Source: Pedobacter sp. (lineage in GTDB: Bacteria; Bacteroidota; Bacteroidia; Sphingobacteriales; Sphingobacteriaceae). From it: DNA of 11,850 nucleotides. The notes under the pieces are model-generated. The model ran no database searches and was not told the origin of the DNA. It worked only from the letters and a program-made list of their open reading frames with translations. This document shows, piece after piece, positions 1,073-6,123 of the stretch; within the stretch, counting starts at the first letter, position 1; each line of letters begins with the position of its first letter. The stretch is from positions 1 to 11,850 of the forward strand of contig JAQBOT010000184.1 in the NCBI GenBank assembly GCA_028287885.1, written 5' to 3'. Both the position numbers and the translations under genes were made by a program.

Positions 1073-1150
1073 AATGATTCATAACAGCTCGGAATGGCAG
1101 GCTTGTTATTTTTTGTAGTTTCGGGTTAAAGTTTCACAGATTGAAAGAAT

Positions 1151-1164
1151 TACGGGAAACCGTA
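1151..1164. promoter_or_regulatory. Operator-like inverted repeat, copy 1
   Basis: TACGGGAAACCGTA: perfect 5-bp arms TACGG/CCGTA around a 4-bp spacer. Its exact reverse complement occurs at 2108-2121. The repeat ends 22 bp before a TACTTTTG box, placing its centre about 43 bp before the likely transcription start, the position typical of an activator touching RNA polymerase. It lies upstream of the response regulator, which is the obvious candidate to bind it (inference). Confidence 0.65.
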
Positions 1165-1194
1165 TTGCGGACGTTAAACTAGCAATTACTTTTG
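1164..1194 (+). promoter_or_regulatory. Putative promoter of the response regulator gene
   Basis: ATTG (1164-1167) as a -33 element, 19 bp spacing, then TACTTTTG (1187-1194), an exact match to the Bacteroidota TAnnTTTG -7 box. The predicted start near 1201 gives a leader of about 56 nt before the ATG at 1257. The operator-like repeat abuts the -33 element, suggesting activator control or autoregulation. Confidence 0.6.
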
Positions 1195-1256
1195 ACAACA
1201 TTGTGGAAGAAGGGATAGATCCGGATTTCCTTCCTATAGCTTAGCCAAGATAAAGA

Positions 1257-1922
1257 ATGTTCAAAAGAGTATTAATCGCAGAAGACCATGAAAGCGTAAG
1301 CATTTCGGTACAAAGAACCCTTGCTGATCTGCAAATAGCGCAGTCAGAATACACCTATTACTGCGATGACGCCTTGATGCACATTAGAAAGAGTCTTAGC
1401 GAAGATCAACCTTTTGATTTGCTTATCACTGATCTTTCCTTCGAGGAAGACCACCGGCCACAGACAATTGCGGGAGGAAGGGAGCTGATCACTGCCGTTA
1501 AACAAGTACACCCAAGTATCAAGGTGCTTGTGTTTTCTGCAGAGAATAAGGCCGCAATAATTGACAGTCTCTTCAAAGAATTTGGCATCAATGGCTTCGT
1601 ACGTAAAGCACGTCACGACTCCAAAGAGTTGAAACTGGCCATTGAGGCCATAGCACAAGATAAAACTTACCTCTCTTCTGATCTGAAAAAGACAGTAAAG
1701 CAGAAGAATGCTTACGAATTCTCAGATTACGACATCACCATTATCTCGCTGTTAGCACAGGGAATGCTTCAGAAAGAGATTCCCAACTATCTTCAGCAGA
1801 ACAACATCAAACCCTCTGGATTAAGCAGCGTTGAAAAACGACTCAATTTAATGAAAGAGATACTGGAGTTTTCCAAGAACGAACAACTCGTTGCATACTG
1901 CAAGGATTTCGGAATAATCTAA
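1257..1922 (+). CDS. Response regulator, NarL/LuxR-like
   Basis: A 221-residue DNA-binding response regulator. The receiver domain (about 1-135) has the acidic pocket E9-D10, the phosphoacceptor D59 in LLITDLSF, S94 in the Thr/Ser switch position (VFSAE) and K117 (VRKAR). The C-terminal part (about 155-205) resembles a LuxR/GerE helix-turn-helix: DITIISLLAQGMLQKEI matches the first helices, but the recognition part is diverged and longer than usual (QNNIKPSGLSSVEKRL), so DNA recognition may be atypical. It is cytosolic and presumably phosphorylated by the TPR histidine kinase encoded convergently at 2309-3988. A strong -7 box with an adjacent 14-bp inverted repeat lies upstream, and the same repeat recurs downstream, which suggests autoregulation. 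The target genes beyond these two sites cannot be read from the window. Confidence 0.9.
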   Translation: MFKRVLIAEDHESVSISVQRTLADLQIAQSEYTYYCDDALMHIRKSLSEDQPFDLLITDLSFEEDHRPQTIAGGRELITAVKQVHPSIKVLVFSAENKAAIIDSLFKEFGINGFVRKARHDSKELKLAIEAIAQDKTYLSSDLKKTVKQKNAYEFSDYDITIISLLAQGMLQKEIPNYLQQNNIKPSGLSSVEKRLNLMKEILEFSKNEQLVAYCKDFGII

Positions 1923-2107
1923 TCCAAACCGCAAAGCCTAAATACTAGACATGAGTATTTCGAGAAATTCGTCGAGAATGCTCAGGAGGCTTATTTAAAG
2001 AAATTGCTTAAAAGATTCCATGTTGTGCTCCGGGAGTGCAGCACAGGCTAATTTATGCCTCGGACAAATGGCTTAGAATTAAGCTTAGGCACAAATAACC
2101 AAGCCTT
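1923..2107. other. Hairpin-rich gap downstream of the response regulator
   Basis: No convincing gene. The stretch has several inverted repeats: AAATACT/AGTATTT (1940-1960, 7-nt loop), TGTGCT/AGCACA (2024-2045, with a competing CTCC/GGAG inside), GCTTA-GAAT-TAAGC (2071-2084) enclosed by TGCCT/AGGCA (2056-2091). The GCCT arm could instead pair with AGGC at 2045-2048, so two folds compete. A 15-codon ORF (1951-1998, MSISRNSSRMLRRLI) exists but has no ribosome binding site. The region may be a structured 3' leader of the regulator mRNA; no T-run marks a clear terminator. Confidence 0.35.
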
Positions 2108-2121
2108 TACGGTTTCCCGTA
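2108..2121. promoter_or_regulatory. Operator-like inverted repeat, copy 2
   Basis: TACGGTTTCCCGTA, the exact reverse complement of the repeat at 1151-1164, with the same arms TACGG/CCGTA. It is again followed after exactly 22 bp by TACTTTTG (2144-2151). The identical geometry at both sites argues for a functional binding site of one regulator, most simply the response regulator encoded between them. Confidence 0.65.
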
Positions 2122-2143
2122 AGGAAGGAAAGCCAGACTACGA

Positions 2144-2151
2144 TACTTTTG
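2144..2151 (+). promoter_or_regulatory. Putative -7 box inside the two-component gap
   Basis: TACTTTTG, identical to the -7 box of the response regulator promoter and at the same distance from the inverted repeat. There is no good -33 element here (AAGG at the 19-bp position), as expected for a promoter that depends on an activator. Predicted start is near 2158. Confidence 0.5.
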
Positions 2152-2157
2152 ATAAAC

Positions 2158-2271
2158 AAATCACAACAACCACAGCCTCAGGCTACAAACAATATCCCCA
2201 TGCTCTCAGAAATCGGAGGAGATTGCCAAGAAGTTTGCTTTCAGAAGTAAACAGAAGCAATCTCCCCTTTT
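2158..2271 (+). ncRNA. Candidate small RNA under operator copy 2
   Basis: A short transcription unit is predicted from the -7 box at 2144-2151 to the T-run at 2268-2271, about 114 nt. Its 5' half is A/C-rich and mostly unstructured apart from a small AGCC-TCA-GGCT hairpin (2174-2184); its 3' half is one long hairpin followed by four T. A 16-codon ORF (2200-2250, MLSEIGGDCQEVCFQK) lies within it but has no ribosome binding site and overlaps the hairpin. The unit ends 37 bp before the histidine kinase stop codon and would be antisense to any 3' extension of the kinase mRNA. Existence and ends are inferred from sequence signals only; a leader-type RNA or small-peptide mRNA are alternatives. Confidence 0.4.
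2218..2271 (+). terminator. Long hairpin with T-run
   Basis: Outer stem GGAGATTGC (2218-2226) with GCAATCTCC (2257-2265); inner stem of 8 pairs (2233-2240 with 2245-2252, one G-T pair) capped by TCAG; the two are separated by an internal loop CAAGAA/AGAA. CCTTTT follows. On the minus strand no T-run follows, so it fits a plus-strand terminator, either of the candidate small RNA or of a read-through transcript of the response regulator. Confidence 0.6.
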
Positions 2272-2308
2272 CAATTTACATTAAGATTCCAATCGAGCAC
2301 AAATAATT

Positions 2309-4768: not shown

Positions 4769-5419
4769 ATGGCAAGAATAAAGAATGGTATCCTGGGGCC
4801 GATCGTCGGCTCCATAGCAAATGTAACCGGCTGCGTCCGCTTAGGTGTTCCAGTGCTCAAAAAGAAAATACAGCCTGCTGTCCTGTCCAAAACCCGAACA
4901 CCCAAACAAAATGGCGTAACCTCAAAGTTTAAGCTCGCAATGGAGTTTATTAAACCAGTTACTCCTTTTATCAACGTTGGGTTTTCGCTGAATAGAGCAC
5001 CCGGACAAACAGCACACAATGTTGCAGTCTCCAAGATCCTTTCGCAGGGTATTAAGGGCGAATTCCCAGAGATGGAATTGGACTTCCCAAATATCATTAT
5101 AACCCAAGGAGAACTGCCAGGAGCGGAAAACCCCAAGGTTGAACTTGTAAATGGCAGCGTGCTTAGCTTTAGCTGGGATTTTGACAAAGACGACTTGTCT
5201 GACCGCAAACGAGATCAAGTCATGTTACTAGCCTATTCTCCGGAAACAAAACAAGCATATTTCCTCAAAAGTGGTGCACGCCGATCTGAAGGAGAGGAAT
5301 TCCTGCAGGTATATCCGGAACTGGAAAATCAAAGTTATCAGACCTATATTTCTTTTATTTCAGACGATAGGCAAATGATTGCGGATAGCAGCTATACAGG
5401 CAAGATAAACACGCTTTAA
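4769..5419 (+). CDS. DUF6266 family protein
   Basis: A 216-residue protein with the DUF6266 pattern: MARIKNGILGPIVGSIANVTG at the start, then a charged linker with RTPKQ (43-47), KLAMEFIKPVTPFINVGF (55-72), HNVAVSKILSQGIKGEFPEME (83-103) and NIIITQGELPGAENPKVELV (108-127), followed by a beta-rich half containing LSFSWDFDKDDLSDRKRDQVMLLAYSP in overlapping parts. No signal peptide or membrane segment is visible. The family is widespread and often multi-copy in Sphingobacteriaceae; no function is established, and its repeated strand pattern hints at a structural or surface/phage-tail-like fold (inference only). The ribosome binding site is weak. It is followed by a large hairpin terminator and is not part of an operon, with the preceding stretch apparently decayed. 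Confidence 0.85.
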   Translation: MARIKNGILGPIVGSIANVTGCVRLGVPVLKKKIQPAVLSKTRTPKQNGVTSKFKLAMEFIKPVTPFINVGFSLNRAPGQTAHNVAVSKILSQGIKGEFPEMELDFPNIIITQGELPGAENPKVELVNGSVLSFSWDFDKDDLSDRKRDQVMLLAYSPETKQAYFLKSGARRSEGEEFLQVYPELENQSYQTYISFISDDRQMIADSSYTGKINTL

Positions 5420-5527: not shown

Positions 5528-5593
5528 TTCAATAAAAGCCAGTTTCATACGCTGTTTCCATTGAAAGAAAAGGTTGTTTTATTCTCTATTATT

Positions 5594-5696
5594 TTTGAAT
5601 AGAAACAGTGTCGATTGAATAGAAGTAATGTCTATTGAATAAAAACAATTGTCTATTGAATGGAGACAATTGTCTATTGAATAGAGACAATCGTCG
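5594..5696. repeat. 21-bp tandem repeat, about five units
   Basis: Units at 5594-5613, 5614-5633, 5634-5654, 5655-5675 and 5676-5696 (20 or 21 bp), of the form ATTGAATAGAGACAATTGTCT; each good unit contains the palindrome GACAATTGTC. The last unit lies inside the 3' end of the gene at 5674, and on the minus strand each well-preserved unit spells Thr-Ile-Val-Ser-Ile-Gln-stop, so the array looks like repeated duplication of the last seven codons of that gene. Units diverge away from the gene. Confidence 0.85.
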
Positions 5697-6123
5697 CCTG
5701 CCGGCCAACCAATTTCCACACATTATCGCGCTTCATCCAGATGTTTGTAAATCGGCGCACAACTGTTTTACCAGCATTGGTTGCCAAACCTTTCGGTTTT
5801 ACTACTTCGCCGCCCATCACAATAGCCGTGTTATCGATAATACTTACTCGTTCAATTTTCCGATCAAAGCTCGAATAGTCAATCTTACCTGTAGCTATTA
5901 GATTGGCCACCTGCTTGCGGGTAAAAATTTGGTTAGATGGATTATTAACAAGGAACTCTGGAGCCCAGATTTTAGATAACGCGGTCGTGTCGCGTTTAAA
6001 GACCGCCTGAAGTTCTTGTTGATCTAGGTTGCGGATTTCAGCTTCCGCATTACTTTGCGCCATCGCAGCGCTGCAGCTGAATAATACCATTAAGGTTAAC
6101 ATCCAACTCCTCTTGTTTTCCAT
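5674..6123 (-). CDS. Secreted NTF2-like protein (DUF4440/SnoaL type)
   Basis: A 149-residue protein with a Sec signal peptide (KR near the start, hydrophobic WMLTLMVLFSCSAAMA, likely cleavage before Q23). The mature part matches the NTF2-like DUF4440 layout: IRNLDQQELQAVFKRDTTAL helix, IWAPEFLVNNPSNQIFTRKQ, then strands VSIIDNTAIVMGGEVV, TVVRRFTNIWMKRDNVWKLVGRQATIV. Such folds include enzymes and ligand-binding or polyketide-cyclase-like proteins, but no catalytic residues can be named, so function is unknown; location is probably periplasmic or outer membrane-associated. The gene stands alone, with no same-strand neighbour closer than about 195 bp upstream, and its 3' end runs into the tandem repeat. 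No clear TAnnTTTG promoter is seen upstream. Confidence 0.85.
   Translation of the reverse strand: MENKRSWMLTLMVLFSCSAAMAQSNAEAEIRNLDQQELQAVFKRDTTALSKIWAPEFLVNNPSNQIFTRKQVANLIATGKIDYSSFDRKIERVSIIDNTAIVMGGEVVKPKGLATNAGKTVVRRFTNIWMKRDNVWKLVGRQATIVSIQ

Follow-up and report, generated by a model that had tools for sequence, protein, structure and literature searches.

In the 11,850-nucleotide stretch of Pedobacter sp. DNA analysed here (the window), the gene of a response regulator is flanked by two copies of the palindrome TACGG-N4-CCGTA, each followed after 22 bp by an identical -7 promoter box, and it is very probable that the regulator binds at these two palindromes on either side of its own gene. 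The sequence and geometry of the pair recur beside orthologous regulators, the sites co-occur with the regulator from genome to genome, and the codons that overlap one of the copies in relatives are frozen. Taken as a whole, the reading that we consider probable is that the two copies are operators bound by the regulator, through which it would activate its own gene and a second transcript, and that the second output is a swappable cargo which in relatives includes cas9; binding, phosphorylation, activation, the pairing with a kinase, the transcription start and the function of the cargo are the parts of it that we infer.

Twin palindromes of equal geometry flank the regulator gene

An earlier note on this DNA, made from the letters alone, had described exact twin 14-bp inverted repeats, each 22 bp before an identical -7 box, and direct reading confirms them (Table 1). 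The two spacers (1165-1186 and 2122-2143) are of equal length, and around site 2 some 20-22 identical bases are common to the second sites of many relatives. Site 2 sits between the regulator gene and the convergent gene of a kinase, and the stretch that it faces has no recognisable gene. Both boxes fit TAnnTTTG, the primary-sigma promoter consensus at -7 in Bacteroidota according to the accessible text of PMC7366714.

Table 1. Positions, strands and supporting observations for the features of the window
Feature	Position	Strand	Basis and remarks
Remnant of the kinase gene 3' end, 31 codons (ITGNRIADVKLAITFDNIVEEGIDPDFLPIA) plus stop, holding site 1 and its -7 box	1149..1244	+	Frame compared with the kinase ends of 28 relatives; blastn
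Site 1, palindrome TACGGGAAACCGTA	1151..1164	+	Putative regulator operator, autoregulatory promoter; read directly, conserved in relatives
-7 box TACTTTTG of the regulator promoter	1187..1194	+	22 bp past site 1; TAnnTTTG is the Bacteroidota -7 consensus (PMC7366714, accessible text)
Response regulator, 221 aa, receiver and C-terminal helical DNA-binding domain, RcsB-like	1257..1922	+	Pfam, sequence profile, fold match
Site 2, palindrome TACGGTTTCCCGTA	2108..2121	+	Putative regulator operator; reverse complement of TACGGGAAACCGTA
-7 box TACTTTTG of the second promoter	2144..2151	+	22 bp past site 2; read directly
Predicted short transcript, about 115 nt, hairpin then TTTT at its end; small RNA or leftover of a lost cargo	2157..2272	+	Fold z -3.4
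Histidine kinase with tetratricopeptide sensor part, 559 aa	2309..3988	-	TPR and HATPase_c; convergent to the regulator; upstream of the regulator in relatives

Sites 1 and 2 are the only exact copies of TACGG-N4-CCGTA in the window, where matches with up to two mismatches number six against 1.8 expected. The chance rate of about one per megabase given in the earlier note agrees with what the genome of the window contains: three distinct exact copies in 3.4 Mb (3,416,165 bases, 92% complete), two of them in the window, so that the motif is not scattered genome-wide. The control pattern read backwards gives five matches in the same genome, against these three. Thus the bare palindrome, at about one per megabase, shows no genome-wide enrichment, and the signal is therefore the paired geometry: chance would not account for a pair around a single gene, for the equal geometry of its two members or for their conservation. 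On neither side of the third palindrome of the genome (C288:535) is there a -7-like box at 20-24 bp, and it was treated as chance. Elsewhere in the window, several imperfect copies of a repeat of about 20 bp (like GTCTATTGAATAGAGACAATT) were seen by eye at 5580-5700, at the 3' end of the minus-strand gene 5674-6123, and a DUF6266 gene (4769-5419) is preceded by a long stretch with no recognisable gene.

Site and box are conserved with the regulator

When 59 related genomes were searched with the regulator protein, 44 gave a match at E 0.001 and 29, the genome of the window included, a strong match (E below 1e-60), the next match standing at 9.9e-10. The pattern TACGGNNNNCCGTAN{20,24}TANNTTTG occurs 108 times in these 59 genomes, against one match for the reversed control, and by a hand count from the listing the spacer is 22 bp in 100 of the 108. 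The distribution follows the regulator: all 29 genomes with a strong match have at least two sites, whereas of the remaining 30, 26 lack the site and four have a single one. The single sites of these last four (G008, G017, G026 and G029) may reflect chance, transfer or a lost regulator.

In all 28 orthologous loci other than the window, the distance from the site to the start of the regulator is 103-111 bp, and TAnnTTTG follows the site at 22 bp. A larger set, the best 80 of 271 loci by regulator protein, was drawn from Pedobacter, Chryseobacterium, Mucilaginibacter, Sphingobacterium, Parapedobacter and their kin; it has some genomes in common with the set of 28, and the compared genomes are not independent. 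The comparison beside orthologues proposed in the earlier note here finds the motif conserved: an exact palindrome stands upstream of the regulator in 78 of the 80 loci, with one more (L097) at a single mismatch, and TAnnTTTG follows at 22 bp in 76. Among the exceptions, L047 and L048 carry TAATTTTA in place of the box, and L075 is without site 1 and, by eye, shows no kinase-like end just before its regulator. At least one further exact downstream site with its box at 22 bp is present in 70 of the 80 loci (86 sites in total), and none was found in the other 10 within the stretch covered. With spacers of 15-30 bp allowed, sites other than the regulator promoter have their box at 22 bp in 89 cases, at 21 bp in two and at 23 bp in two.

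Many Chryseobacterium, Sphingobacterium and Parapedobacter loci (within L054-L108) have an extra palindrome before the kinase gene, about 2,200-2,390 bp before the regulator; in some of them its box faces a divergent gene with no assigned family.

The regulator and its likely partner kinase

The receiver domain of the regulator is recognised by Pfam (Response_reg, 33.1 bits against a cut-off of 30.2, E 6.8e-8), and its phosphoacceptor aspartate (D59) and conserved lysine (K117) are invariant across 32 aligned regulators. Among solved structures, RcsB is the best match both by sequence profile (E 3e-12) and by fold (6eo2, E 1.6e-11, TM 0.64, about 21% identity); full-length fold matches include RcsB, LiaR and VraR, and the AlphaFold2 model (mean pLDDT 88.0, pTM 0.64) has at least four C-terminal helices. 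The receiver is the sole Pfam domain found (GerE is not matched at E 0.001), and with NCBIfam the protein stays below the cut-off of every equivalog.

NarL/FixJ-type response regulators have a short inverted repeat as their binding site. The system of the window resembles RcsB and this type in its best matches by profile and fold and in its combination of a receiver with a helical DNA-binding domain, and the perfect 5-bp arms TACGG/CCGTA, which are conserved, would make up such a site, bound by a dimer. It differs in that its likely partner kinase has a tetratricopeptide sensor part, and in that the regulator is only about 21% identical to RcsB, with Pfam finding the receiver only.

The kinase of the window is likely the partner of the regulator. 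It is the sole close copy in its genome, the next match having 28% identity over part of the protein, and each of the 80 loci has a tblastn match to it upstream of the regulator, at 51-58% identity for the best listed. Residues 56-360 match the NCBIfam model of FimS of Porphyromonas gingivalis at 32 bits, far under its cut-off of 600 bits; the likeness is that of a Bacteroidota kinase with a tetratricopeptide-type sensor part. According to the accessible text of PMC11053733, however, FimS-FimR controls fimbriae, whereas the targets here are nucleases, cas9 and genes of no assigned role.

Exchangeable genes behind the second sites

The first frames after the non-autoregulatory sites of the 80 loci (92 frames) fall into 31 clusters. 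The larger ones hold an HSDR_N nuclease-like protein (12 members), a double-DUF1508 protein (11), a family of about 68 aa (9), a weakly DUF4177-like protein (6), the gene divergent from the kinase (5), a DUF6232 protein (4) and DUF4236 (3); PLD nuclease-like proteins make up two, and TerD-like, VWA and Cas9 proteins one each. Another cluster of six, whose frames start MKTVF about 210 nt past the box, may be a chance frame.

We also took 60 further stretches, from genomes of the 80 loci and from others, 59 around chosen further sites (a subset of those listed) and one the contig of the third own-genome palindrome. Here the cargo comprises a SIR2_2 protein (L128), AAA_5 ATPases (L120 and L148, the latter matching PADLOC PD-T4-1), more PLD proteins and more Cas9 genes. 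L138, considered as SIR2-like, has no such Pfam match and was left out. Distal sites in six genomes (L119, L124, L130, L131, L132 and L133) are followed, 40-63 nt past the box, by a family of about 512 aa, which has no Pfam match in the member tested (L130). In a Pedobacter steynii genome (L202, at 2119) a palindrome with 22-bp boxes on both sides stands between a PLD nuclease-like gene and a divergent gene, in the same layout as at cas9.

Across Sphingobacteriaceae and Weeksellaceae the second output appears to be a swappable cargo, usually one gene behind the regulator plus targets elsewhere. A defence label for the entire regulon is only a hypothesis, because many of the targets match no family.

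The second transcript of the window

Past the second box of the window, no ATG-started frame of at least 40 aa begins within 260 nt. The short transcript predicted there folds with a z of -4.2 when taken over the longer stretch 2157-2290, and a comparison with Rfam up to E 1 matched nothing in the window, 2157-2272 included. We lean slightly towards an orphan promoter, left after the loss of a cargo gene. That the promoter instead drives a working small RNA has, in our estimate, somewhat less than an even chance. The strong hairpin with its T run speaks for it, as do the RNAs at regulator boxes elsewhere (the putative tracrRNA of Parapedobacter luteus, below, and the conserved stretch of L047 and L048); on the other side, the one full match in 145 genus genomes is the copy in the genome of the window, and second sites without a gene occur in six of the 80 loci (L041, L047, L048, L092, L094 and L109), as cargo loss would leave them. 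By eye, L094 and L109 still have the final codons of a cargo gene resembling that of L056; here the gene would have been lost and its promoter would have stayed.

L047 and L048, which come from two Pedobacter species, are identical in 126 of 151 aligned columns past the box and share a long, nearly identical core there; the corresponding figures are 43 of 88 for the sequence ahead of the site and 591 of 666 for the regulator gene. Some of the gene-less transcripts may therefore be real small RNAs. The candidate at L047:6788-6930 has near-full-length copies in two of the 145 genus genomes, probably those of L047 and L048 themselves.

Two identities for the RNA of the window were tried and rejected: a small RNA conserved genus-wide at 2152-2300, given the single full match (G079 shares a 31-base stretch at the terminator), and a tracrRNA, given that the genome has no Cas9 match at E 1e-10. 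The GacA-rsm system has small-RNA genes under the control of a response regulator, which acts by way of a fixed palindrome upstream of them; there, however, the bacteria and the palindrome are others, whereas the targets here are mostly protein genes.

The same palindrome at cas9

In Parapedobacter luteus, a single palindrome lies between the divergent genes of Cas9 (TACCTTTA at 22 bp) and of a small RNA (TATCTTTG at 22 bp). Behind cas9 there is an array with a repeat of about 46 nt in six copies, 75-76 bp apart, and 16 nt of the RNA, TGAAAGCAAATCACAA, are identical to part of this CRISPR repeat (array in L191). Since it shares these 16 nt, the RNA would pair with a crRNA read from the other strand; we take it for a putative tracrRNA, with the array presumably transcribed from that strand. 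The Rfam tracrRNA model gives it 22.3 bits (E 0.39), below the cut-off of 70. At a Cas9 gene of Pedobacter steynii (L205) the same palindrome has both its boxes at 21 bp.

Two samples of Cas9 genomes were compared by one rule, which accepts a site with up to one mismatch and TAnnTTT[GA] at 21-23 bp on either side, no more than 400 bp from the cas9 start. Sample 1 comprises all 27 Cas9 genomes among 301 of the family of the window (15 of them regulator-positive), and sample 2 the best-scoring 30 of 102 Cas9 genomes among 246 of the family of G056, a Chryseobacterium (25 regulator-positive); regulator-positive means a match at E 1e-20 or better, which takes in weak cases such as G473 (33% identity) and G635 (a partial match). 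In the two samples together, a site is present at 25 of 39 regulator-positive cas9 loci, against none of 17 regulator-negative ones; when these promoters were scanned with 59 permuted half-sites, there was no hit. The regulator-positive L249 was dropped, no start having been found, and L157, with an exact site past 400 bp, was scored as a miss. The association holds in sample 1 alone (12 of 15 against 0 of 12 by hand count, p 3.7e-5), in sample 2 alone (14 of 25 against 0 of 5, with only five regulator-negative genomes, p 0.045) and, by hand count, when the distance limit and the drop are removed (26 of 40 against 0 of 17, p 3.1e-6); since the genomes are not independent, all these p-values are too small. 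At 14 of the 39 regulator-positive loci nothing passes the rule; in seven of these, all in sample 2, a two-mismatch version occupies the same place, and when up to two mismatches are allowed that sample gives 21 of 25 against 0 of 5. To judge from these promoters, the signalling system may control bacterial immunity genes, cas9 among them.

Activation, repression or another binder

We propose that the kinase of the window pairs with the regulator and would phosphorylate it, and that the phosphorylated regulator would bind TACGG-N4-CCGTA as a dimer. If transcription starts a few bases past TAnnTTTG, the centre of the palindrome would lie about 40 bp before the start, beside the place of the -33 element, and the bound dimer would recruit RNA polymerase to a promoter whose -7 box is a good one. 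At site 1 the outcome would be positive autoregulation and at site 2 a second transcript. In several genomes the second output would be cas9 and a divergent RNA, the putative tracrRNA in the case of Parapedobacter luteus, from one shared palindrome. The window has no such cargo gene, and its second promoter faces only a predicted short transcript with a terminator.

No TTTG was found 17-21 bp before the box at any of 221 sites. The missing -33 TTTG is weak evidence, because next to the palindrome there is room for it only at spacers of 17 and 18. In Flavobacterium johnsoniae no -33 motif was found genome-wide, according to the accessible text of PMC7366714.

The main alternative is that the regulator binds these sites and represses its own gene, the cargo and cas9, a signal then relieving the repression. 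There is a precedent in group B Streptococcus, where the response regulator CovR represses a cas promoter (PMC12216829, accessible part); however, the near-constant 22 bp to the -7 box suits contact with the polymerase, and a repressor would usually tolerate more positions, and we regard repression as unlikely. Less probable again, and to our minds very improbable, is that another DNA-binding protein, always travelling with the regulator, binds the palindrome while the regulator has other targets: co-occurrence by itself does not identify the binder, but site 1 stands directly before the regulator gene in 79 of the 80 loci, and the regulator has a predicted DNA-binding fold of its own. Activation by the regulator is also how the earlier note had read the pair, with its own gene and a second transcript as targets; the presence of the regulator, which tracks the sites across genomes and at cas9, supports it, and the geometry would favour activation over repression.

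Site 1 lies within the kinase gene of relatives

In relatives, the regulator is closely preceded by the end of the kinase gene, where site 1 codes for N-T-G-N-R-I or a variant of it in the ATPase domain. Our codon analysis used 97 distinct loci with an open kinase frame, which were selected for a palindrome with up to one mismatch, so that its counts are conditioned on the site (the unconditioned rate of site 1 at this stringency is 79 of 80 loci). Under the site, threonine is ACG in 96 of 96 cases (background 13%), arginine CGT in 97 of 97 (15%) and asparagine AAC in 37 of 37 (28%), and the isoleucine overlapping the start of the -7 box is ATT in 91 of 91 (47%). The middle residues vary (G/V/E/D and N/S/T), as do several adjacent codons.

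In the window, the kinase is inverted and lies on the other side of the regulator, and a remnant of a kinase 3' end, with site and box intact, stays upstream (blastn against the kinase 3' end of L006/L043: 78% over 63 nt, E 7e-8). The moved kinase has no palindrome at the corresponding place, and a short kinase frame before the regulator was found in none of the other loci of the codon analysis. The open frame before the regulator, considered as a leader peptide, is this remnant. The rearrangement parts the function of the DNA site from that of the protein, and is a natural experiment in which a regulatory DNA site has been separated from the protein sequence that usually contains it. That site 1 is a mere by-product of the conserved kinase sequence, whose ATPase-domain residues it encodes in relatives, has next to no probability and is ruled out by the freezing of synonymous positions while the middle residues change and by the identical sites outside coding sequence at other promoters, and in the window the kinase has moved while the DNA site stayed.

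Discussion

Autoregulated two-component systems with small regulons are common. In the literature covered here (titles and the starts of abstracts among the matches listed, most subscription journals being outside its scope), nothing was found on this regulator, on the palindrome, or on a NarL-type regulator at cas9 or tracrRNA in Bacteroidota. The nearest reports, as far as their accessible parts go, concern CovR and the PhoPR system of Riemerella anatipestifer (PMC12216829, PMC5399024, PMC9603813). (i) CovR is, like the regulator proposed here, a response regulator that acts directly on cas9 transcription, but it does so in a Firmicute, where it represses a distal cas promoter within a virulence network (PMC12216829, accessible part); the system described here has a regulator of another family, a shared divergent palindrome and a proposed activation. 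(ii) PhoPR is a two-component system of Weeksellaceae type whose deletion changed the expression of cas9, cas1 and cas2; its regulator is of the OmpR family (PMC5399024) and is associated with a TTTAACA motif and 583 peaks (PMC9603813; for both papers, the accessible part). It is, however, another regulator with another site than those of the window.

The regularity of the operator (14 bp, 22 bp, 8 bp) makes it usable as a search key, and the genes found behind it become candidates for roles in immunity or in nucleic-acid stress. Going further, and with confidence that stops just short of even, we suggest that Bacteroidota have a dedicated two-component system which, on sensing a signal in the envelope or periplasm, turns on immunity on demand, that one palindrome would fire both cas9 and the tracrRNA, and that the box would serve as a plug-in port for the exchange of nuclease-type genes, other cargo genes or small RNAs between species. 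If the regulator does control cas9 and tracrRNA from a shared operator, this would be a signal-driven switch of CRISPR immunity in Bacteroidota, and the signal of its kinase would reveal what these bacteria treat as a warning.
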